A stretch of DNA of 64,000 nucleotides from Ensifer sp. LC11 (GTDB lineage Bacteria; Pseudomonadota; Alphaproteobacteria; Rhizobiales; Rhizobiaceae). The position numbers were made by a program, and so were the translations under genes. The DNA lies in assembly GCF_001695835.1 (NCBI RefSeq), contig NZ_MBSO01000007.1, forward strand, positions 7,501 through 71,500, in the 5' to 3' direction. This document shows positions 53,045 to 64,000 of the stretch, one piece after another; within the stretch, counting starts at the first letter, position 1; every line of letters starts with the position of its first letter. The notes beneath the pieces are model-generated. The model did not search any database and was not told the DNA's origin. It saw nothing but the letters and a program-made list of their open reading frames with translations.

Positions 53045-54067
53045 TCATGCTGCTGCCACCTTGAGGATTGCCTTGACGAGACCCGACTTTTCTTCTGCCC
53101 ATCGCGGCAGATCGACGACCGCACCATCCAGCGTCGTGCGGTGGGTGATCAGCGCCTCGACCGGCACAAGGCCGGAACCAATCGACGCGACGACGTGATC
53201 GAAGTCCTGGCGCGTCGCATTGCGGCTGCCAATCAACGTCATCTCGCGCTTATGGAACTCGGGATCTGAGAAGCGGATTTCGTCCTTCACCACGCTGACG
53301 AACACCAGCGTGCCGCCATGGGCGACATGGGCAAAGGCCGCCTGCATCGATCCGCCGTGTCCGGTGGCATCGAAGACGACATCGAAGCCATCGCCATCCG
53401 TCGCCTCGGCGACGCGTGCTGCAACGTCCGCGTCCGCGACGATGCCATGTTTGAAACCGAGCCTCTCCGCCGCAAAAGCCAGCCGCTCGGCGCTGGTGTC
53501 GGCGAGCACCACCCGGTGGCCGGCGATGCGCGAGAAGATTGCCGTGCCGAGGCCAATCGGTCCGGCGCCGATGATCAGGGCGCGCGCCCCCGGAGCAACC
53601 GAAGCGCGCCGCACCGCATGGGCGCCGATGGCGAGGAACTCAACGGTCGCCGCGGCCTCCGACGAGAGGTCGTATGCCGGATAGAGATTTCCTTCCGGCA
53701 CGACGATTTCCTCGCAGAAGGCGCCGTCGGTATGGACGCCGAGAACCTTGATCGAGGTGCAGCAGTTTGGCTTGCCCTGGCGGCAAGCAACACAAGTGCC
53801 GCAGGCGAGATAGGGATTGACGACGACCCGCGTTCCCGGGGCGATCACCGTCCCAGGACCGCCGGCGACGACCGTTGCCGAGATCTCGTGACCCATGACG
53901 CGGGGATACTCCAGAAACGGGTGCTTGCCGGCGAAGATATGGTAGTCGGTGCCGCAAATGCCGACATGGCTGACCGCGAGACGCACCCAACCGTCAGGCA
54001 CATTTTCGGCCGGCGGACGGTCAACGACCTCCAGGCGGCCGGGTTCGAGGCAGAGCACGGCTTTCAT
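53045..54067 (-). CDS. zinc-dependent dehydrogenase, LgoD (L-galactonate dehydrogenase)-like
   Basis: Medium-chain dehydrogenase of 340 aa. The catalytic zinc ligands are Cys38 (GICGTD) and His60-Glu61 (GHE), the structural zinc is held by Cys89, Cys92, Cys95 and Cys103, and the NAD loop is GAGPIGLG. The stretches VLGVHTDGAF and FSDPEFHKREMTLIGSRNAT closely recall E. coli LgoD (YjjN), which oxidises L-galactonate to D-tagaturonate. More distant candidates are RspB-type and sorbitol dehydrogenases. Last gene of the six-gene minus-strand operon. The substrate is inferred from similarity and from UxaA and UxaB neighbours. Confidence 0.82.
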   Translation of the reverse strand: MKAVLCLEPGRLEVVDRPPAENVPDGWVRLAVSHVGICGTDYHIFAGKHPFLEYPRVMGHEISATVVAGGPGTVIAPGTRVVVNPYLACGTCVACRQGKPNCCTSIKVLGVHTDGAFCEEIVVPEGNLYPAYDLSSEAAATVEFLAIGAHAVRRASVAPGARALIIGAGPIGLGTAIFSRIAGHRVVLADTSAERLAFAAERLGFKHGIVADADVAARVAEATDGDGFDVVFDATGHGGSMQAAFAHVAHGGTLVFVSVVKDEIRFSDPEFHKREMTLIGSRNATRQDFDHVVASIGSGLVPVEALITHRTTLDGAVVDLPRWAEEKSGLVKAILKVAAA

Positions 54068-54097
54068 GGCAATTCTCTCGGATGACGGTGGCAGCGC

Positions 54098-55075
54098 CTA
54101 GCGGGCGCTGCGGCGCCGGAGTTGGTCGAAATAGACGATGACGATGATCAGCGCCCCGGTGATGATGCGCTGCCAGAACGAGTTGACGTTGAGCAGATTG
54201 GCGCCGTTGTTGATCGTCGCGAGGATGAAGGCACCGAGCAGCGGGCCATGCACCGAGCCGACCGCACCGAAAAGGCTGGTGCCGCCAATGACAGAGGAGG
54301 CGATCGCCTGCAGTTCCCAACCTTCGGCCTGGGTGGCATTGCCGATGCCGATGCGCGAGGCAAGCAGCAGGCCGACAAAAGCGGCGCAGGTCGAGGAGAG
54401 GATGTAGGCAAGATAGATGGTGCGGTGGACGTTGACACCCGACAGGCGCGCCGCCTCGCTGTTGGAGCCGACGGCGAAGAGATAGCGACCGAAGCGGCTC
54501 AGATGCAGGAAGATGTAGGCCGGAACCGCCACAACGATCACCATCCAGAACAGGCTGGGCACGCCGAGGAAATCCGCACGCGAGAAATTAGTGAAGGCCT
54601 CATCGGTGATCGAGATCGTCGAGCCGTTGGTGATCAGCAGGCCGATGCCGCGCAGCGAGGTGAGGGTCGCAAGCGTGATGATGAAGGGCGGCAGCCCCAT
54701 GCGCACAATACCGAAGGCGTGAAAAGCGCCGATCACCACCCCGAAGGCAAGCGTGAGGATGATAGCGGCCCAGAGCGGCACGCCGGCGGCAAGCAGCCAG
54801 GCGACGATGACGCTGGTGAAGCCGACCACGGCGCCCACCGAAAGATCGATGCCTGCGGTGATGATGACGAAAGTCTGGCCGACCGCAAGGATGGCCGTCA
54901 TCGCGCCCTGCCGCAGCAGGTTGCTGATGTTGTTAGGCGTCCAGAAGCTGTTGGTGGCAAAGCCCAACAGCAGCCAGAGGAACAGGAGCAGCCCCAGAAG
55001 AGTGAGGCCAAACAGGATGCTCACGCCTTTCCGTGGCGCCGCACCCGCACCGCTCTCCACCGTTTCCACACTCAT
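54098..55075 (-). CDS. ribose-class ABC transporter permease (RbsC-like)
   Basis: Inner-membrane permease of 325 aa with about nine or ten hydrophobic segments and the CUT2 family signatures TAGIDLSVGAVVGF and GGTSLFGAVGSVHGPLLGA. It forms the channel of the sugar importer with the adjacent double ATPase and binding protein. It ends 31 bp before the LgoD-like gene. GGGAGGAAG precedes the ATG. Confidence 0.93.
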   Translation of the reverse strand: MSVETVESGAGAAPRKGVSILFGLTLLGLLLFLWLLLGFATNSFWTPNNISNLLRQGAMTAILAVGQTFVIITAGIDLSVGAVVGFTSVIVAWLLAAGVPLWAAIILTLAFGVVIGAFHAFGIVRMGLPPFIITLATLTSLRGIGLLITNGSTISITDEAFTNFSRADFLGVPSLFWMVIVVAVPAYIFLHLSRFGRYLFAVGSNSEAARLSGVNVHRTIYLAYILSSTCAAFVGLLLASRIGIGNATQAEGWELQAIASSVIGGTSLFGAVGSVHGPLLGAFILATINNGANLLNVNSFWQRIITGALIIVIVYFDQLRRRSAR

Positions 55076-55170
55076 TGTCTTCCTCCCTGCATCCCTCGAA
55101 TTTCACTCGCTCTAACGCAATCCGGACGCCAAACGGCTTCACACTCTTGCTGGAATCGCCCTCAGCGCAA

Positions 55171-56724
55171 TCAAACGCCGATCGCCTGCGTCAGCACTTC
55201 CTCGTGGCTCGCGGCACGATAGTCATGGCTGGCGACCAGCCGTCCCCCTCGGAATACATGCAGCCGGTCCGCGAGCTCGTAGACTTCAGGCAGATAGGAC
55301 GAAATCAGGATGATGCCCGCCCCGTTCTCCAGAAGCCGCGCGAACAGGCGGTAAATTTCCGCCTTCGTGCCAACATCGACGCCGACAGTCGGTTCGTCGA
55401 AAATGAAGAGCTTGGCACCGTGGCTCAGCCACTTGCCGATGACGATCTTCTGTTGGTTGCCGCCCGACATGGCGGAGACGAGCACCCGGCGCGACGGCGT
55501 CTTGATCTTCAGATCGCGAATCTGCCGGTCGGCATTCTCGCGCTCCTGCTGGCCGTTGATCGTCAGCCCGCGTGTCAGCCGGTTGAACACCGGCAGGTTG
55601 ATGTTGAGGCCGATCGGCAGATTGAGGCATAGGCCCTGGTCGCGTCGACTTTCCGGCGCGAGTGCGATGCCGAGGTCCATGGCCATGCGTTCGCTGGCGA
55701 TGTCGACCTTGCGCCCCTGCCAGTAGACCTCGCCGGCGCTCGGGCGATGGCGTCCATAGAGACCGAGTGCGAATTCGCTGCGTCCCGCCCCGATCAGCCC
55801 GTAAAGCCCGACGATCTCGCCGGCACGGACGGTGAGCGACACATCCTGAAAGCCGGGGCCGCTCAAGTTCCGCGTTTCGACGATGATGTCGCCGGCTGGA
55901 AAATGCTCCTTGTGGTAGATCTGCTCGATCGTGCGGTTGATCATCAGCGCGATCAGCTCCGCCTCGTTCGTCTCGCCGATCTTGCGGGTGCCGACATGGG
56001 TGCCGTCGCGCAGCACCGAGACACGGTCGGCGAGTTCGAAGACCTCCTCCATGCGGTGGCTGATGTAGACGATGGTCACGCCTTCCGCCTGCAGCCTGCG
56101 GATGAGGCGGAAGAGCTGGGCCGATTCCTGTCGGGTAAGATAGGCCGTCGGTTCGTCGAAGATCAGAAACTGCGTACCACGCATGGCGGCGCGCGCCGTT
56201 GCGACCAGTTGCTGCTGGCCGATGGTGAGGCTACCGAGCACGGCCCCTGCCGGCAGGTTGAAGCCGAGATCATCGAGCACCCGCTGCGCCGCATCGGTCA
56301 TGGCGCGCTTGCGCATCAGGCCGTTTCGATTGATTTCGTCGCCAAGGAACATGTTGGCAGCCACCGACAGATGGGCACAGAGCACGACCTCCTGGTGCAC
56401 CGCGTTGATGCCCCGTTCGATCGCCTCATGCGGCGTGCCGAGCTGGACGGGCTTGCCACACCAAAAAATCTCGCCGGACGTGCGCCGGATGACACCGGTC
56501 AAGAGCTTGATCAGCGTCGACTTGCCGGCACCGTTCTCACCGACGATCGCGTGGATTTCACCGGAAAGGAACGTCAGCGAAGCGGGCTTCAGCGCTTCCA
56601 CAGCGCCATATTTCTTCTGAAGGGCCCGCAGCTCCAGGATCGGCTCGCCCTTCGGAACCGGATGGCGCGTGGCCACCGTAAGCCCTTCGGTCCTGACATC
56701 GCGTGCCTCTTGCAACTCGGTCAT
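55171..56724 (-). CDS. ribose-class ABC transporter ATPase (RbsA/MglA-like)
   Basis: Duplicated ATPase of 517 aa. The first half has Walker A GENGAGKST, signature LTIGQQQLV and Walker B FLIFDEPTAYL. The second half has a degenerate Walker A (GLIGAGRSEF), signature MSGGNQQK and Walker B LFIFDEPTVGVD, the asymmetric pattern normal for RbsA/MglA. Start at MTELQEARD, preceded by GGGAGGAA eight bases away. A 25-residue upstream extension was discarded. Confidence 0.94.
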   Translation of the reverse strand: MTELQEARDVRTEGLTVATRHPVPKGEPILELRALQKKYGAVEALKPASLTFLSGEIHAIVGENGAGKSTLIKLLTGVIRRTSGEIFWCGKPVQLGTPHEAIERGINAVHQEVVLCAHLSVAANMFLGDEINRNGLMRKRAMTDAAQRVLDDLGFNLPAGAVLGSLTIGQQQLVATARAAMRGTQFLIFDEPTAYLTRQESAQLFRLIRRLQAEGVTIVYISHRMEEVFELADRVSVLRDGTHVGTRKIGETNEAELIALMINRTIEQIYHKEHFPAGDIIVETRNLSGPGFQDVSLTVRAGEIVGLYGLIGAGRSEFALGLYGRHRPSAGEVYWQGRKVDIASERMAMDLGIALAPESRRDQGLCLNLPIGLNINLPVFNRLTRGLTINGQQERENADRQIRDLKIKTPSRRVLVSAMSGGNQQKIVIGKWLSHGAKLFIFDEPTVGVDVGTKAEIYRLFARLLENGAGIILISSYLPEVYELADRLHVFRGGRLVASHDYRAASHEEVLTQAIGV

Positions 56725-56820
56725 CTGCGCATTCCTCCCATCGCAGAGATTGCTTGCGACCGGTCCTCGTTCCGGTCGCAAACAGGCGGCGGCGAACAAA
56801 TGCGCCGCCGCCAGCCATCA

Positions 56821-57810
56821 TCACTTGATCTTCGGGTTCAGCAGAGCGTCGATCTTCGGGTCCGCCATATTGGTCTTGGTCACCAGGTTGGCACCGGTAT
56901 CGACATTCGCCTCGACCTTCTCACCCTTGGAGACGGCCAGCGCCGTCTTCACGCCATCATAGCCCATGCGATAGGGATCCTGAACGACGAGACCCGCCAG
57001 AACGCCTTCCTTGAGGAAGCCGACGGTCTTGTCGTCGCTGTCGAAGCCAATCACCTTGATCTTGTCACCGAGCTTGTTTTCGGCGATCGCCTGGCCAACG
57101 CCCTGCGCCATGATCAGGTTGGAGGCAAAGACCCCAATGAGATTCGGGTTTGCGGTGATCAGGTCCGTCATCATGTTGAGACCCGTGGTCGCCTGGCCGT
57201 CGGCATATTTGTCGGCCACCACCTTGAAGCCCGGATACTTGGTCTTGACCTGATCGAGGAAGCCTTCGCGGCGCTGATCGAGCGAACCGACACCGGGAAG
57301 GTTGGTGATAATGGCGATCTCACCCTCTTCCTTGCCGGTCATTTCCTTTACCGCCGCAGCAAGACCATCGGCAGCAATACGGCCGCCCTGGACGTTGTCG
57401 GTGGTCAGGAACGAGGAGAAGGCCTTCGAGTCGGCGCCAGAATCAATGCCGATGATCGGAACGGATTTGGCTGCCTCGTCGATCGGCTTGCCAAGCGCCT
57501 TGAACTCCGTCGGCGAAATGACGACGGCAGCCGGTGCGCCAGCCACCGCATTCTCGAGAATGCTGATCTGGCCGTTGATGTCGGACTCGGCCTGAGCGCC
57601 CAGTTCCGGCACGTTGACGCCCAGGTCCTTGCCGGCGGCGCGCGCACCGGCCAAAACGATCTGCCAGTAGAAGGATGTGGTGTCCTTGACGATGATCGGG
57701 ATCGTCACGTCCTGCGCGAAGGATGCGACCGGCGTCATGCCGGCGATCATCGCGGCGCCGGCAAGGGCCGTGAAGGCACGGCGGGTAAGGCTGCTTTTCA
57801 GAATGCTCAT
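56821..57810 (-). CDS. sugar ABC transporter substrate-binding protein (RbsB-like)
   Basis: Periplasmic binding protein of 329 aa, peripla_BP_4 type. The leader SLTRRAFTALAGAAMIAGM has twin arginines and could use Tat or Sec export, with cleavage near SFAQD. The mature domain has typical hinge and ligand stretches: IIGIDSGADSK, DNVQGGRIAADGL and VIGFDSDDKTVGFL. Start at MSILKSSLT, with GAGGAG upstream. Specificity is not readable by eye. Context suggests a neutral hexose rather than an acid, because CUT2 importers take sugars. Confidence 0.92.
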   Translation of the reverse strand: MSILKSSLTRRAFTALAGAAMIAGMTPVASFAQDVTIPIIVKDTTSFYWQIVLAGARAAGKDLGVNVPELGAQAESDINGQISILENAVAGAPAAVVISPTEFKALGKPIDEAAKSVPIIGIDSGADSKAFSSFLTTDNVQGGRIAADGLAAAVKEMTGKEEGEIAIITNLPGVGSLDQRREGFLDQVKTKYPGFKVVADKYADGQATTGLNMMTDLITANPNLIGVFASNLIMAQGVGQAIAENKLGDKIKVIGFDSDDKTVGFLKEGVLAGLVVQDPYRMGYDGVKTALAVSKGEKVEANVDTGANLVTKTNMADPKIDALLNPKIK

Positions 57811-57977
57811 CCCAGGTTTCTCCTCTTTTTGCACCGTGTTCCAGGTTTTGGAGATCGATCGCAGGTGCCGGCTATCGATCTTTTATCGATAAAAAACATA
57901 TTGGAATGCTAATACGACATTCACGGCTTGGCAAGCCGGCAGAACATGCATTTCAGGCCCCGAAGCGGCGCCACCCG

Positions 57978-58997
57978 CTAGACCCGAACCGGCTGGTCTC
58001 CGAGTTCCGGCGCGACCAAAGTAAACGGATCGAACGCCGCCAGATCAGGTGCGGACAACCGGCGTTCGACGAGCGCCATGTTGCGCCTCAGGCTCTCCGG
58101 CCTTGCGGTGCCGAGCAGCACGGAGGCCACCTGCGGACTGAAAAGCGGAAACTGCATCGCCGGGGCCGCGAGCGGCACATTCATCGCGCGGGCAACTTCT
58201 TCCATCGCGCCGACCTTCTGCCTGACTTCGGCGGTTGCCGGCATGTAATCGAAATGGGCACCTTCGACCGGGCCGGTCGCCAGGATGCCGGAATTGAAAA
58301 CGCCACCGACGACGAGCGATGTCTGCTTCTTCTCGCAAAGCGGCAGCAGTTCGGCGACGGCCGAGCGATCGAGCAGGGTGTAGCGGCCGGCAAGCAGGAT
58401 GCAGTCGATATCGGCGCGGCGCATCACCTCCAGACAGACCGGAACCTCGTTCACACCCAGGCCATAGGCCGCAATCGTTCCTGAGGACATCAGCTCCTCC
58501 AGCGCCTTGAGGCCGCCGTCCAGCAATTGCCTGAGATAGACGGCGTTGCGGACGGCCCCATGGGTGTAGACCCCGATATCGTGCACATAGAGGATATCGA
58601 TGCGGTTGAGGCCGAGCCGGGCATAGCTGAACTCGACCGACCGCATGATGCCGTCGTAGCTGTAGTCGTAATCGACGTCGAAGTTGAGCGGCTTCACATA
58701 GGAATAGTCGGAGACCTTGTCTTCCGGCACTGGATGCAGGAGACGGCCAACCTTGGTGGAGAGAACGAAATCGTTGCGCGGCTTGTCGCGCAGGAAGTCG
58801 CCGACGCGGCGCTCGGCAAGCCCGAGGCCGTAAAAGGGTGCGACGTCGAAATAGCGCATACCCGACTGCCACGCCACATCCAGCGTTGCCAAGGCGGCGT
58901 CGCGCGTGCATTCCCGGTAAAGCCCACCGAGGCCGGCGGCACCGAAGCTGTATTCGGTCACCGATAGTCCGGTTCGACCGATCCGTCTCGTCTGCAT
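57978..58997 (-). CDS. aldo/keto reductase, L-fucose/L-galactose (D-threo-aldose) 1-dehydrogenase type
   Basis: AKR-fold enzyme of 339 aa. The tetrad is Asp51, Tyr56 (DVAPFYG), Lys82 (STKVG) and His139 (YVHDIGVY). The VKPLNFDVDYDYSYDGIMRSVE-type insertion is characteristic of D-threo-aldose/L-fucose dehydrogenases and pyridoxal 4-dehydrogenases. Such enzymes oxidise L-fucose, L-galactose or D-arabinose at C1 to the lactone. No lactonase is adjacent. It follows the uxaA-like gene by 39 bp, with GGAGGAGGAG as ribosome-binding site. Confidence 0.85.
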   Translation of the reverse strand: MQTRRIGRTGLSVTEYSFGAAGLGGLYRECTRDAALATLDVAWQSGMRYFDVAPFYGLGLAERRVGDFLRDKPRNDFVLSTKVGRLLHPVPEDKVSDYSYVKPLNFDVDYDYSYDGIMRSVEFSYARLGLNRIDILYVHDIGVYTHGAVRNAVYLRQLLDGGLKALEELMSSGTIAAYGLGVNEVPVCLEVMRRADIDCILLAGRYTLLDRSAVAELLPLCEKKQTSLVVGGVFNSGILATGPVEGAHFDYMPATAEVRQKVGAMEEVARAMNVPLAAPAMQFPLFSPQVASVLLGTARPESLRRNMALVERRLSAPDLAAFDPFTLVAPELGDQPVRV

Positions 58998-59036
58998 TCC
59001 CTGTTCTCCTCCTCCAAGGATGCGTCCATCGCCTGC

Positions 59037-60542
59037 CTAGAGCGTCGCCCCCAGATGCCAGGGCACGAACTCATTGTCGCCGTAGCCGAAGAGTTCGCTC
59101 TTGGTCTTGCGGCCCGAAGCGGTTTCGACGATCAGATCGAAGATCTCGCGGCCGAGCCCGGCAATGCTCGCTTCTCCGGAAGCAATCACGCCGCAATCGA
59201 TATCCATGTCCTCTTCCATTGCCCTAAACAGCGCCGTGTTGCTGGTGAGCTTGATCGACGGTGCGGGTCGACAGCCAAAGCAACTGCCGCGCCCGGTGGT
59301 AAACGCGATCACATTGGCACCGCCGGCGACCTGGCCGGTGGCCGACACCGGATCGTATCCCGGCGTATCCATGAAAACGAGCCCGTGCTCGGTCACCCGT
59401 TCGGCATATCGGTAGACGGCGTTCAACGGCGAGCGGCCACCCTTGGCGACGGCACCGAGCGACTTTTCGAGAATTGTCGTCAGGCCGCCGCGTTTGTTGC
59501 CCGGCGAAGGGTTGTTGTCGAGCGAGGCACCGTGCATCGCCACATAATTCTCCCACCAGGCGATCAGCCCGTCGAGCTTCACCGCCACGGCTTCGTTCAC
59601 TGCCCGGCTGCGCAGCAGATGCTCTGCGCCGTAGATTTCCGAGGTTTCCGAGAGGATCGCGGTACCGCCGGCAGCAGCAAGAATATCGACTGCGGCACCG
59701 AGCGCCGGATTGGCCGTGATCCCTGAAAGCCCATCCGACCCGCCGCATTGCAGGCCAACGATGATCTCGCTGACAGGGATGGCGACGCGACGTTCCATGC
59801 CGACCTCGGCCGCGATTTCGTCGAGAATGCCGAGCGCTTTTTCCACCGAACGGCGGGAGCCACCGGCCTCCTGGATGTTGAAGTGCCGCTTTTCTGTGCC
59901 GGTTCCGCTCTGGCCATAAAGCGTCAGCTGGTTGACCTCGCAACCGAGGCCGACCATCAGCACGCCGCCGAAATTGGCATGGCGGGCATAACCCGCAAGC
60001 GTGCGATGCAGATTGGCCATGCCGTCGCCCGTCGACGACATGCCGCAGCCCTGGTCGTGCACGATCGGCACGAAGCCATCGATGCCCTCGTATTTCGGCA
60101 AGATGCGCCTGTTCGCCTCCTCGGCGATCGCACGACAGACCGTGGTGGAACAGTTCACGCTGGCGACGACACCGATGTAATTTCGCGTCGCCGCCCGCCC
60201 GTCGCCACGCCGATAGCCCATGAAGGTGCGGGTCTTGTCGGTCTCGCTTGCCGCTTGCGGCGTCCCCTGCGGACCGATCGCGAGCCGGTCGCGGTCGAAG
60301 GCGAGATTGTGGGAATGCACATGGTCACCCGGCGCGATATCGACGGTCGCCCGACCGATCGCCTGGGCATATTTGACGACCGGTTCGCCCGCGCGGATGG
60401 GGCGGATCGCGATCTTGTGGCCAGCATCCACCTGGGTTGCCGCCTGAGCATTGTTCGGCAGGCTGTCGCCGGCAGCGATCGCCAGCGTCGCCACGACGAC
60501 ATTGTCCTCCGGTGCGAGCAGAATGGTGGACGGCGCAGACAC
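59037..60542 (-). CDS. altronate dehydratase family protein (UxaA-like)
   Basis: Dehydratase of 501 aa in the UxaA/GarD family, with the N-terminal SAF domain (about 1-90, APGDHVHSHNLAF) fused to the main domain as in full UxaA. Conserved elements include GRAATRNYIGVV, HDQGCGMS, GLGCEVNQ, GLQCGGSDGLSGITANPA and GRGSCFGCRPAPSIK, whose cysteines may hold iron. D-altronate to 2-keto-3-deoxygluconate is the expected reaction. Galactarate is an alternative. The start is GTG with GGGAGAG upstream. First gene of the minus-strand operon. Confidence 0.88.
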   Translation of the reverse strand: MSAPSTILLAPEDNVVVATLAIAAGDSLPNNAQAATQVDAGHKIAIRPIRAGEPVVKYAQAIGRATVDIAPGDHVHSHNLAFDRDRLAIGPQGTPQAASETDKTRTFMGYRRGDGRAATRNYIGVVASVNCSTTVCRAIAEEANRRILPKYEGIDGFVPIVHDQGCGMSSTGDGMANLHRTLAGYARHANFGGVLMVGLGCEVNQLTLYGQSGTGTEKRHFNIQEAGGSRRSVEKALGILDEIAAEVGMERRVAIPVSEIIVGLQCGGSDGLSGITANPALGAAVDILAAAGGTAILSETSEIYGAEHLLRSRAVNEAVAVKLDGLIAWWENYVAMHGASLDNNPSPGNKRGGLTTILEKSLGAVAKGGRSPLNAVYRYAERVTEHGLVFMDTPGYDPVSATGQVAGGANVIAFTTGRGSCFGCRPAPSIKLTSNTALFRAMEEDMDIDCGVIASGEASIAGLGREIFDLIVETASGRKTKSELFGYGDNEFVPWHLGATL

Positions 60543-60573
60543 CGATCTCTCCCTTAGTGCTTTGGTCAGTTAT

Positions 60574-60599
60574 TCTGTCTTTTATCTACAATAGACAGA
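60574..60599. promoter_or_regulatory. candidate operator between uxaA-like and GntR genes
   Basis: Inverted repeat TCTGTCT (60574-60580) and AGACAGA (60593-60599) with a 12-bp AT-rich spacer, in the 223-bp divergent promoter region. Its place 32 bp upstream of the uxaA-like start fits repression by the adjacent GntR regulator. Binding is inferred. Confidence 0.5.
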
Positions 60600-60765
60600 T
60601 CGTCGTCAATGGGTATTATGGCGAAAGATCCGAACCGCGGCCGGCAAGGCCATCGCGGCAAACGGGAGGAACCGATGTTGACGACAGGCGAAGACAAAAC
60701 CCGAGCGACGGGATAGAGGAGCCTCCGCATAAGCGCAGAGAAATTCGAACGACCCGGACGTCGCC

Positions 60766-61644
60766 ATGGCAAAACAGAACACCGTCTTCAAGGATGCCTA
60801 TAACCGCTGCCTGCGGCTGCTGGCTGACACATCCTCCCTGCCATCCGAACCGGAGCTTGGGCAGGTGCTCGGCGTCAGCCGAACAACGGTGCGAGCGATC
60901 CTCAGCCGTTTTGAGGAACTGCAGCTCATCGCATGGGACAAGCGCAAGAAGAACGTGCTGCGGCAGCCGCGCCCCGACGACTACTTTCCGACCGAAGAAA
61001 CCGATTCGCTCGCCGACATCATCGAGCGCAGCTTCATGCGCAGGATACTGGCCGGCGGGGCCGAGCCGGGGATGCAGATCAACGAGCTTGAACTGGCGCG
61101 TGAAATCGGCACCGGCACCACCAGCGTGCGCGAATTCCTCATCCGTTTCAGCCGCTTCGGCCTGATCGAGAAACGGCCGAACAGTCACTGGATACTCAAG
61201 GGCTTCACGCGGGAATTTGCGCTGGAGTTGACCGAGGTGCGCGAGATGTTCGAGTTGCGCTCGGCCGCGCGTTTCGTCTCGCTTCCCGACGACCACCCGG
61301 CTTGGGAGGAGCTGACGAAGATCGAAGCTCTGCATCGGGAAATCCTGGCGGATATCGACAGGCGCTATCAGGAATTCTCGGAGCTCGACGAGCAATTTCA
61401 CCTGCTGGTGCACAAGGCGTCCAGCAATCGCTTCATCGTCGATTTCTACGACATCATCGCGATCGTCTTCCACTATCACTACCAGTGGAACAAGACGAAT
61501 GCGCGCCAGCGCAACGCCCGCGCGCTCGAAGAACATCTCGCCTATATCGAAGCTCTACGCTCGCACGATCCCGAAAAGGCCGAGCAGGCCTGCCGGCGGC
61601 ACCTCCAGTCCGCGCGCGAAACCTTGCTTCAATCCATTCCATAG
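60766..61644 (+). CDS. GntR/FCD transcriptional regulator with two winged-helix domains
   Basis: Regulator of 292 aa. Two GntR-type winged helices are visible: residues 10-66 (LPSEPELGQVLGVSRTTVR...) and 82-147 (INELELAREIGTGTTSVREFL). An FCD effector domain follows at about 152-288, with metal-site residues in DEQFHLLVHKASSN, FHYHYQW and EEHLAYIEAL. Standard FadR-subfamily members have one HTH and about 230-240 aa. It is divergent from the catabolic operon and followed by the uxaB-like gene, so it is the likely local regulator. Confidence 0.9.
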   Translation: MAKQNTVFKDAYNRCLRLLADTSSLPSEPELGQVLGVSRTTVRAILSRFEELQLIAWDKRKKNVLRQPRPDDYFPTEETDSLADIIERSFMRRILAGGAEPGMQINELELAREIGTGTTSVREFLIRFSRFGLIEKRPNSHWILKGFTREFALELTEVREMFELRSAARFVSLPDDHPAWEELTKIEALHREILADIDRRYQEFSELDEQFHLLVHKASSNRFIVDFYDIIAIVFHYHYQWNKTNARQRNARALEEHLAYIEALRSHDPEKAEQACRRHLQSARETLLQSIP

Positions 61645-61663
61645 CCAGCTATCGGAGCTACGC

Positions 61664-62752
61664 ATGCCGACGCCGATCGTACAATTCGGGACGAGCCGTT
61701 TCCTTCAGGCGCATGCCGATCTCTTCATCAGCGAGGCGCTGAAGACGGGTCATGCACCGGGACCCATCACGGTGGTGCAGACGACCGGGTCGAAAGAGCG
61801 TTCAGGCCGTCTTGCGGCTCTCACCCACCCCGACGGCTTTCCCGTGGTCGTCCGTGGCCTTCTCGACGGCGAGCGAATTGACCAAACAAAGCGCGTCACC
61901 AGCGTATCGCGGGCACTTTCGACTGGCGAGAACTGGGCCGACGTTATGAACATTGTCGCCGAGGAGGCGGAAATCCTGATCTCCAATACCGGCGATACCG
62001 GCTTTCAGGTCGCTGAGGATGACCTGGCATCGGAGATCCCCCGTTCCTTTCCGGGTAAACTCCTTCTGCTTCTCAAGGCCCGATTCGATGTGGGCGGACG
62101 ACCGCTGACGATCCTTCCCTGCGAACTCGTTTCGCGCAATGGCGAGGTGCTCAAAGCGCTAATGTTGCGGCTCGCGGCCGACCGCATCGAAGACGATGCC
62201 TTCGCAAATTGGCTCACAGAGGATGTCGTCTGGGCAAATACGCTGGTCGACCGCATCGTCTCCGAACCGCTGGAGCCTGCCGGCGCCATTGCCGAGCCCT
62301 ACGCGCTGTGGGCCATTGAAAACCAGCCGGGTTTACGGCTGCCCTGTATCGACCCGTCCGTGAAGCTCGTGGAAGACCTGACGCCCTACGAAAAGCTGAA
62401 GCTCCACATCCTCAATCTCGGCCACACGGTGCTTGCAGATCTCTGGCTGAAGGAAAACCGCCGCCCGAACGAGACTGTCCGGGAAATCCTCGCTGATGCC
62501 CGCGTGGCAGGCCGGCTCGAACACATCTATCAAGCCGAAGTCATCCGCGCTTTCGCCGCAAAGGGTTTGGAGAACGAGGCGACCAGCTATGCTGCCGCAA
62601 CGTTGGAGCGTTTCAGCAACCCGTTTCTCAACCACCGCCTTGGCGATATCGCCAACCATCATCAGGAAAAGATAGCGCGCCGGATCGCCGACCTCAGACG
62701 CTGGAGCCCGGGCGTGCCAATGCCCGAGCTCGCGGCAATTTCCGATCAGTAG
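61664..62752 (+). CDS. mannitol-dehydrogenase-family oxidoreductase, tagaturonate reductase (UxaB)-like
   Basis: Long-chain polyol dehydrogenase of 362 aa. The N-terminal VQFGTSRFLQAHADLF is a variant NAD loop, ILPCELVSRNGEVLK and WANTLVDRIV match tagaturonate/fructuronate reductases, and LKLHILNLGHTVLADL contains the catalytic lysine-asparagine-histidine region. It is shorter than E. coli UxaB (about 480 aa). Reduction of D-tagaturonate to D-altronate is expected from its neighbours. GGAG precedes the ATG. Its end overlaps the convergent aldolase gene by seven bases. Confidence 0.85.
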   Translation: MPTPIVQFGTSRFLQAHADLFISEALKTGHAPGPITVVQTTGSKERSGRLAALTHPDGFPVVVRGLLDGERIDQTKRVTSVSRALSTGENWADVMNIVAEEAEILISNTGDTGFQVAEDDLASEIPRSFPGKLLLLLKARFDVGGRPLTILPCELVSRNGEVLKALMLRLAADRIEDDAFANWLTEDVVWANTLVDRIVSEPLEPAGAIAEPYALWAIENQPGLRLPCIDPSVKLVEDLTPYEKLKLHILNLGHTVLADLWLKENRRPNETVREILADARVAGRLEHIYQAEVIRAFAAKGLENEATSYAAATLERFSNPFLNHRLGDIANHHQEKIARRIADLRRWSPGVPMPELAAISDQ

Positions 62753-63552
62753 CCGGATTCCTGCTTCTTTGGTGCCGGAGCCGCCTCGCCGAGAAACTCC
62801 TGGCGCAGGGCTGTCGTCGCCCGCACGAGCGATGTGACATCCGTACCGATCGCCATGAAATCGGCGCCGATGTTGCGGTAGTCCCGCGCCTGCTCGAGAT
62901 CGAGCGTCATGATGCCGCTTGCCTTACCGGCCTTTTTGATGCGCAGGAACGCGTCGGCGATCGCCGCACGCACTTCGGGATGACCCGGTTTGCCGAGGTA
63001 ACCCATATCCGCCGCAAGGTCGGACGGACCGATGAATAGACCATCGACGCCGTCGAGCGCTGCGATCTCGTCGAGTGCGGCAAGGCCGGCCCGGCTTTCG
63101 ATCTGCAGGATCAGGCAGATCTCATCGCTGGCCGTCTGCAGATAATCGGCGACGCGGCCAAATTGCGAGGCGCGGCCGAGCGCCGCGCCAACCCCGCGGA
63201 CGCCGTGGGGCGGGTAGCGGGTGGCCCGCACCAGCTGCTGCGCCTGGGCCAGGCTCCCAACCATCGGGATCAGCAGGGTCTGCACGCCGGTGTCAAGGAT
63301 CTGCTTGATCAGCACGGTGTCGCCGACCGGCAGGCGGACCATCGGGTGACTGGCCGAGCCTGCGACCGCGCGAAACTGCGCCGACAGCAACGGAATATCG
63401 TTCGGCGCATGCTCGCCGTCGATCAGCAGCCAGTCATAGCCGCTACCGGACACCACCTCCGCGGCATAGGGGCTGGCAAGCGCCACCCAGAGCCCGAGCT
63501 GGAAGCGGTTTTCGCGCAGAGCTGCCTTGAAAGGGTTCGTCGGTGCCGGCAT
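62746..63552 (-). CDS. HpcH/HpaI family class II aldolase
   Basis: TIM-barrel metal-dependent aldolase of 268 aa. LIDGEHAPND, MVRLPVGD, GVRGVGAALGRASQFG and the QIESRAGLAALDEIAA metal-binding Glu, plus GLFIGPSDLAADMG, are typical of the 2-keto-3-deoxy-acid aldolases (HpcH, GarL, YfaU). It may cleave 2-keto-3-deoxygluconate to pyruvate and glyceraldehyde. Start at MPAPTNPF, well spaced from AGGAGGAG. An ATG six bases upstream is too close to that site. Confidence 0.87.
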   Translation of the reverse strand: MPAPTNPFKAALRENRFQLGLWVALASPYAAEVVSGSGYDWLLIDGEHAPNDIPLLSAQFRAVAGSASHPMVRLPVGDTVLIKQILDTGVQTLLIPMVGSLAQAQQLVRATRYPPHGVRGVGAALGRASQFGRVADYLQTASDEICLILQIESRAGLAALDEIAALDGVDGLFIGPSDLAADMGYLGKPGHPEVRAAIADAFLRIKKAGKASGIMTLDLEQARDYRNIGADFMAIGTDVTSLVRATTALRQEFLGEAAPAPKKQESGY

Positions 63553-63628
63553 GGCCATCTCCTCCTGTATTGCGACGGGATGAGATCATTGCCGTACATC
63601 CCGCGATCACGAGATTTCTACCGGCAAA

Positions 63629-63663
63629 GAAAAAAACCGGCCAGAACTTTCCGGCCGGCTTTG
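63629..63663 (-). terminator. intrinsic terminator of the aldehyde dehydrogenase gene
   Basis: Arms CCGGCC and GGCCGG separated by AGAACTTTCC. On the minus strand the stem is followed by seven consecutive T. It separates the dehydrogenase transcript from the aldolase gene. Confidence 0.85.
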
Positions 63664-63681
63664 TGATTGGGTTACCGTATC

Positions 63682-64000
63682 TTATGCAACGCCGCCGAGG
63701 CAGACGTATTTGATCTCGGTGAACTCCTCGATGCCGTAGCGCGAGCCTTCTCGGCCAAGACCGGACAGCTTGACGCCGCCGAACGGCGCTTCCGCCGTCG
63801 AGATCAGCCCGGTGTTGACGCCGACCATGCCGTATTCGAGCGCCTCAGCCACCCGGAACACGCGGGCGAGATCCTTGGCGTAGAAGTAGGAGGCGAGGCC
63901 GAATTCGGTGTCGTTCGCCTGGGCCACAACATCCGCCTCGTCGGTGAAGCGGAAGAGCGGCGCCACCGGCCCGAAGGTTTCCTCGCGTGCAACCGCCATC
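63682..64000 (-). CDS. NAD(P)-dependent aldehyde dehydrogenase, SSADH-like, C-terminal part (cut by window end)
   Basis: C-terminal 106 residues of an aldehyde dehydrogenase. [13 protein letters not shown] is the universal motif near the second conserved Glu, and [30 protein letters not shown] is the C-terminal pattern of succinate-semialdehyde dehydrogenases (GabD). The catalytic Cys lies outside the window. In this context it could oxidise glyceraldehyde or another aldolase product. Housekeeping GABA metabolism is the alternative. Confidence 0.88.

Follow-up and report, generated by a model that had tools for sequence, protein, structure and literature searches.

A conserved rhizobial gene set in Ensifer sp. 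LC11 with probable roles in L-hexose oxidation resembles the known bacterial L-galactose pathway

Which sugar is served by a cluster of importer and dehydrogenase genes in Ensifer sp. LC11, and how does its breakdown end? The cluster lies at the right end of a 64,000-nucleotide stretch of DNA (the window), which is part of contig C7 (NZ_MBSO01000007.1, positions 7,501 to 71,500) of a 6.2 Mb assembly in 73 contigs (GCF_001695835.1). An earlier note on this DNA had proposed that the cluster oxidises L-galactose, a rare plant sugar, to 2-keto-3-deoxygluconate (KDG), which a neighbouring aldolase then cleaves directly. We infer reactions, regulation and substrate from gene content, homology, synteny and a conserved operator-like site. 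Our preferred reading, held with moderate confidence, is that a GntR-regulated CUT2 importer and four enzymes oxidise L-galactose, that KDG passes to an unlinked KdgK-like protein and 2-keto-3-deoxy-6-phosphogluconate (KDPG) aldolase, and that the HpcH and GabD genes beside the cluster are neighbours of gyrB.

In the proposed route, the CUT2 importer would take up L-galactose and the GntR protein would regulate the set. The aldo/keto reductase (AKR) would oxidise L-galactose to L-galactono-lactone, and might also accept L-fucose and D-arabinose at this first step. Hydrolysis of the lactone would be spontaneous or catalysed by a fuconolactonase-like amidohydrolase, which belongs to the set in some relatives. 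An LgoD-like zinc dehydrogenase (ZnDH) would then convert L-galactonate to D-tagaturonate, a UxaB-like reductase would produce D-altronate, and a UxaA-like dehydratase would yield KDG. Most likely, the unlinked KdgK-like protein and KDPG aldolase would convert KDG to pyruvate and glyceraldehyde-3-phosphate.

All gene families named by the earlier note are present at their places as open frames of the expected type (Table 1). The top five PDB matches of the AKR are all named L-galactose dehydrogenase, the best scoring 114.1 bits and the next protein 61. The UxaA-like protein contains four cysteines (C131, C166, C201, and C266) that are invariant across four aligned sequences; among NCBIfam models it fits galactarate dehydratase best (367 bits, below the cut-off of 731). 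UxaC, an enolase-type fuconate dehydratase and KDG kinase are lacking from the locus, as the earlier note had said. Elsewhere in the genome, an enolase-type L-fuconate dehydratase homolog, a KDG-kinase-like gene and a KDPG aldolase are present. A search for the uronate isomerase UxaC, which belongs to the D-galacturonate isomerase pathway, returned no matches in the whole genome and was positive in 7 of 14 control genomes.

Table 1. Features of the candidate L-hexose oxidation locus and its neighbors, in window coordinates
Feature	Position	Strand	Remarks
LgoD-like zinc dehydrogenase (ZnDH), candidate L-galactonate 5-dehydrogenase	53045..54067	-	Pfam ADH_N + ADH_zinc_N
CUT2 ABC permease	54098..55075	-	Pfam BPD_transp_2
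CUT2 ABC ATPase	55171..56730	-	two ABC_tran stretches; start uncertain, open frame extends to 56799
CUT2 sugar-binding protein (SBP)	56821..57810	-	relative of Arad_9553 (PDB 4rxt), 568.9 bits
Second, weak operator-like site	57877..57898	.	before the binding-protein gene, 3 mismatches
Aldo/keto reductase (AKR), candidate L-galactose 1-dehydrogenase	57978..58997	-	PDB matches
UxaA/GarD-family dehydratase, candidate D-altronate (or L-galactonate) dehydratase	59037..60542	-	SAF, GD_AH_second, GD_AH_C domains
Operator-like palindrome TGTCTWTT-N6-AAWAGACA	60576..60597	.	divergent promoter between regulator and catabolic genes, 0 mismatches
GntR/FCD regulator	60766..61644	+	Pfam HTH_Crp_2 30–61, GntR 88–140, FCD 154–281
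Short UxaB-like (mannitol dehydrogenase family) reductase, candidate D-tagaturonate reductase	61664..62752	+	start chosen by the authors
HpcH/HpaI aldolase	62746..63558	-	HpaI model 368.7 bits, cut-off 368.8
GabD-type succinate-semialdehyde dehydrogenase, 3′ end	63682..64000	-	only the last 319 bases in the window; gene runs on outside

The route from L-galactose through L-galactonate, D-tagaturonate and D-altronate to KDG is already known, since the four enzyme types match LguA, LguD, LguC, and LguB of Luteolibacter. In the published work with purified enzymes, KDG is formed in successive steps: LguA serves as L-galactose/L-glucose dehydrogenase, LguD oxidises L-galactonate, LguC reduces D-tagaturonate and LguB dehydrates D-altronate. 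KDG kinase and KDPG aldolase follow, and the lgu genes were also tested by gene disruption (PMC12632266). By homology, the locus likewise holds an AKR-family L-galactose 1-dehydrogenase, an L-galactonate dehydrogenase and a D-altronate dehydratase, and the set most likely belongs to the known L-galactose pathway.

Three known catabolic pathways can be compared with the locus. The lguABCDEF cluster of Luteolibacter sp. LG18, for L-glucose and L-galactose, also groups AKR, UxaA-, UxaB- and LgoD-type enzymes with the same inferred order from L-galactose to KDG, a likeness of enzyme type rather than of sequence identity. It is described without an importer, with LguR (helix-turn-helix type, Btr-like) and with a KDPG aldolase, as far as the available text goes, whereas the Ensifer set is linked to a CUT2 importer and a GntR/FCD regulator. 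Phocaeicola (Bacteroides) vulgatus, of a different phylum, is reported to reach D-tagaturonate with L-galactose and L-galactonate dehydrogenases (BVU_0219 and BVU_0222; via PMC12632266), and is likened here by description, not sequence. E. coli L-galactonate catabolism employs LgoD, UxaB, UxaA, KdgK, and Eda. The Ensifer proteins are 42.7% identical to LgoD (314 residues aligned), 36% to UxaA and 29% to UxaB (over 367 residues). In E. coli, however, lgoD, uxaA, and uxaB are far apart and no L-galactose dehydrogenase adjoins lgoD, while here the genes form one cluster with an importer. The rhizobial set looks like a new carrier of a known route.

Relatives of the locus were retrieved by their AKR (80 of the 120 found; the closest named ones are Ensifer species) and compared by tblastn (E ≤ 1e-10, query coverage above one half). 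Tallies of long loci refer to the 70 relatives longer than 20 kb and exclude the 10 not exceeding that length. Gene calls in the relatives came from a simple script that missed some genes, such as an AKR relative in locus L162. The GntR regulator, AKR, SBP, ATPase, permease and ZnDH occur all together in 67 of 70 long loci, which shows that the cluster is no chance assembly. Individually, the permease and the ATPase are each present in 69/70 and the ZnDH in 67/70. The set is found in Ensifer/Sinorhizobium, Rhizobium, Shinella, Mesorhizobium, and Peteryoungia, and is a real and conserved, probably co-regulated rhizobial set with a putative role in L-hexose oxidation.

The palindrome of the divergent promoter recurs in 79 of the 80 relatives when up to 2 mismatches are allowed, before UxaA in 64 and before the AKR in 15. 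The sole relative without it, locus L089 of Shinella zoogloeoides PQ7, has lost the regulator and the importer. The window contains two sites at up to 3 mismatches versus 0.13 expected. In the whole genome, the palindrome matches a single site at up to 2 mismatches, and the reversed control pattern also has one match. Six of the 80 relatives possess an extra site with 2 mismatches, 86–89 bp before the SBP gene. In the window, 19 bases separate GntR from the UxaB start that we chose, and UxaB is the first gene past the palindrome in genomes G104 (L167) and G083 (L166). Position and conservation suggest that the GntR regulator binds the palindrome. The regulator itself contains two helix-turn-helix stretches before one FCD domain, the first being an extra N-terminal one. 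In a 38% relative encoded in L162, the GntR match covers residues 21–59 and the FCD domain residues 157–284.

Relatives carry additional genes. In 49/80 loci, an RbsD/FucU-family homolog lies no more than 300 bp behind the AKR; it is 62–71% identical to the L167 member, whose best NCBIfam model is L-fucose mutarotase (124.3 bits, below the cut-off of 141). The earlier note had remarked on a missing lactonase. None is present in the Ensifer locus, and the genome offers only a weak amidohydrolase-family match (103 bits, contig C14); yet in 14 of 80 relatives a fuconolactonase-like amidohydrolase follows the ZnDH. The best model for the L067 member is L-fucono-1,5-lactonase (208.3 bits, below the cut-off of 400). 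The most complete version seen, in the single-contig genome G104 (L167), has GntR on one side of the promoter and UxaB, UxaA, AKR, FucU-type mutarotase, SBP, ATPase, permease, ZnDH and lactonase in succession on the other. No match to the HpcH or GabD of the window occurs within the 16 kb read there.

The aldolase and the GabD-type dehydrogenase behave differently from the set. Scoring a locus as gyrB-side if HpcH or gyrB was found, both genes are present in 39/39 gyrB-side long loci and in none of the 31 long loci elsewhere; gyrB itself is seen in all 39 and in none of the 31. In L214 of genome G094, the order gyrB–nitroreductase–HpcH–phaZ occurs without GabD and without the sugar set, and the AKR and importer of this genome lie on another contig (L223). 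In L089 (9084–12384), the AKR and a mutarotase lie beside gyrB, GabD, and HpcH, and a short-chain dehydrogenase/reductase (SDR) replaces the regulator, importer and ZnDH. In the 80 relatives, the 500 bp ahead of HpcH and of GabD contained no operator-like site when up to 2 mismatches were allowed. The GabD-type protein, completed from the contig, scores 848.9 bits against the NADP-dependent succinate-semialdehyde dehydrogenase equivalog (cut-off 828). Both genes are therefore probably part of the gyrB neighborhood and not of the conserved set or its candidate regulon. A second HpcH/HpaI aldolase is encoded on contig C23 (L222:7859–8632), is 67% identical to that of the window and exceeds the HpaI cut-off.

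These data bear on how the route ends. The oxidative route of the earlier note, from L-galactose down to KDG, is still the best reading and agrees with the characterised pathway. Its last part, in which HpcH/HpaI cleaves KDG directly and the aldehyde dehydrogenase oxidises the resulting glyceraldehyde, is contradicted by synteny, operator distribution and family assignments, which indicate HpaI and succinate-semialdehyde dehydrogenase. The adjacency of both genes to the set in the window and in all gyrB-side long loci would fit such cleavage, as would the PDB relatives of the aldolase, among which are 2-keto-3-deoxy sugar aldolases (YfaU and the galactarate type); we nevertheless judge it very unlikely because of the gyrB-linked synteny, the set-free L214, the missing operator and the alternative enzymes elsewhere in the genome. 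Outside the locus, KDPG aldolase (Eda) exceeds its curated cut-off, and a KdgK-like protein is encoded in 25 of 26 carriers, a carrier being any of the 151 family genomes with a best AKR match of 55–100% identity. A phosphorylating end thus seems to be available without the neighboring aldolase.

Several observations weigh against the preferred reading. The KdgK-like kinase of Ensifer sp. LC11 scores 246.7 bits, below the cut-off of 400, and none of those in the carriers exceeds it. The best NCBIfam model of the UxaB-like protein, tagaturonate reductase, is matched at 220 bits, below the cut-off of 359. UxaB occurs in 29/70 long loci, and UxaA in 56/70, being missing from 14/70. Among the 26 carriers, 12 have a UxaB orthologue (≥52% identity), 3 have a 30–31% relative alone, and a genome-wide search of the other 11 returned nothing at E ≤ 1e-20. 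UxaA at ≥72% identity lies beside the AKR orthologue in 13 carriers; one has a 54% relative cut by contig ends, 11 have a sole relative of 51–55% elsewhere in the genome, and one has none. The UxaA family is also widespread (114/151 family genomes), so its co-occurrence with the AKR (25/26 carriers vs 89/125 other genomes, Fisher p 0.005) says little and was dropped as evidence. Ensifer sp. LC11 has one UxaA-family gene. In a separate count, at least 28 of 91 non-orthologous AKR relatives have a UxaA gene, among the stronger UxaA matches listed, no more than 10 kb away, versus about 0.4% expected.

In carriers devoid of UxaB, a different reductase may replace it, or the steps may proceed in another order. 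Dehydration might come first, with the UxaA-type enzyme converting L-galactonate to L-2-keto-3-deoxygalactonate, the ZnDH oxidising C5, and KDG being formed by either UxaB or an unlinked reductase. The greater constancy of AKR, ZnDH, and UxaA relative to UxaB would be explained by this order, and an Acidovorax UxaA-family protein is mentioned as an L-galactonate dehydratase, from unpublished data (PMC6336799, available text). LguD, however, is reported to act on L-galactonate itself and LguB on D-altronate (PMC12632266), and the order is of very low probability as a general scheme. A narrower version, restricted to the UxaB-less carriers, would have the UxaA-type enzyme dehydrate L-galactonate first, the LgoD-like enzyme oxidise C5 and an unlinked reductase re-reduce it, a new order of C5 inversion whose substrate arrives through a high-affinity importer that also takes L-fucose; this too is distinctly improbable. 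A small aldo/keto reductase that occupies the UxaB slot behind GntR (L104:6285–7178) was considered as a replacement and set aside, being present in only 2 of 80 loci.

The remaining counterpoints concern the substrate. The SBP of the window is 88% identical to Arad_9553 (4rxt), whose bound ligand we take to be D-arabinose. Its predicted structure is of good quality when based on an alignment (predicted local distance difference test score, pLDDT, 87.7) and poor from the single sequence (41.6); a Foldseek search with the former confirmed 4rxt as Arad_9553. The four ligand residues named for S. meliloti SMc02774 correspond to K42, R180, N231, and Q277 of the SBP when the SMc02774 numbering is applied without its sequence, and the two proteins are very probably orthologues. 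As in the window, the S. meliloti importer genes are contiguous with an AKR gene (SMc02772–SMc02775). SMc02774, an L-fucose biosensor and the only protein of that locus studied in the available part of PMC3454389, is reported there to bind L-fucose with a Kd of 3.6 nM and L-rhamnose with 1.6 μM; the adjacent SMc02775 is annotated as L-fucose dehydrogenase, and that part of the paper contains no test of L-galactose. In Biolog plates, Sinorhizobium prairiense is reported to use L-fucose but not L-galactonic acid γ-lactone (PMC12574840; the gene content of the strain was not examined). Uptake of the lactone may be limiting.

The set could accordingly serve mainly L-fucose, with D-arabinose, the AKR forming L-fuconolactone and the UxaA-type enzyme dehydrating L-fuconate, with pyruvate and lactate then formed by cleavage or oxidation. 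Consistent with this are the nanomolar binding of L-fucose by the S. meliloti orthologue and its induction by fucose (PMC3454389), a UxaA-family D-arabinonate dehydratase with weak L-fuconate activity (PMC6336799), and the mutarotase and lactonase of the relatives, which score best, below cut-off, with L-fucose models. LguA, with the same role as the AKR, is reported to be inactive on L-fucose (PMC12632266). The enolase-type L-fuconate dehydratase, L-2-keto-3-deoxyfuconate (L-KDF) 4-dehydrogenase and diketo-fuconate hydrolase of the L-fucose route are not among the locus genes; their homologs are on contig C14. The dehydratase homolog matches the solved enzyme at 573 bits, and an entry named only mandelate racemase-like at 709. 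An SDR of C14 scores 308 bits against the solved L-KDF 4-dehydrogenase (enzyme described in PMC11199699). A FAH-type protein and importer genes, recognised in translation, lie next to the dehydratase homolog. We know of no role for an LgoD-like ZnDH or a UxaB-like reductase in the L-fucose route. L-galactose is placed first because of these two enzymes and the C14 homologs, and a set serving mainly L-fucose is rather unlikely. Since the C14 cluster gave no confident identification of an L-fucose 1-dehydrogenase, the AKR of the window could also serve L-fucose, and L-fucose or D-arabinose may be further ligands beside L-galactose. The C14 cluster (L256:12713–16074 and L254:1628–10811) also encodes a second enolase (L-talarate/galactarate dehydratase model, under cut-off), a weak L-rhamnose-mutarotase match, and Gfo/Idh-like and MaoC-like proteins.

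On the reading that we prefer, a soil and root bacterium of the genus Ensifer probably imports and burns L-galactose by a route known from other bacteria. In the literature surveyed, L-galactose catabolism has been shown experimentally in very few bacteria. The available text of the 2025 Luteolibacter paper (PMC12632266) reports that its authors came across no organism with the other orthologues but lacking the epimerase gene lguG, and so none predicted to use L-galactose only. Searches on SMb21103–21112, Arad_9553/4RXT, an SBP screen and rhizobial L-galactose use returned nothing usable, and the accessible portions of PMC11302038, PMC12542648, PMC11378808, and PMC9007349 contain no function tests of this set. 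If the reading is right, L-galactose use would be widespread among plant-associated rhizobia and their relatives, and S. meliloti SMc02774 would gain a second candidate ligand. The set forms a small candidate regulon that is easily tested in laboratory strains.

Two genomes show rearranged or repeated versions of the set. In G094, no ZnDH, UxaA, or UxaB was found within the 19 kb read around the AKR and importer (L223). Another contig of this genome (L163:4168–11075) carries UxaB, a family-3 (polar-type) ABC importer, ZnDH2, and UxaA2, with an operator-like site of 2 mismatches about 144 bp before UxaB, and resembles a gene cluster for the uptake of sugar acids. Genome G124 contains a paralogous version of the set (L162:4589–14466), which comprises an SMP-30 lactonase, UxaA2, ZnDH2, a CUT2 importer, GntR, an AKR relative and UxaB.

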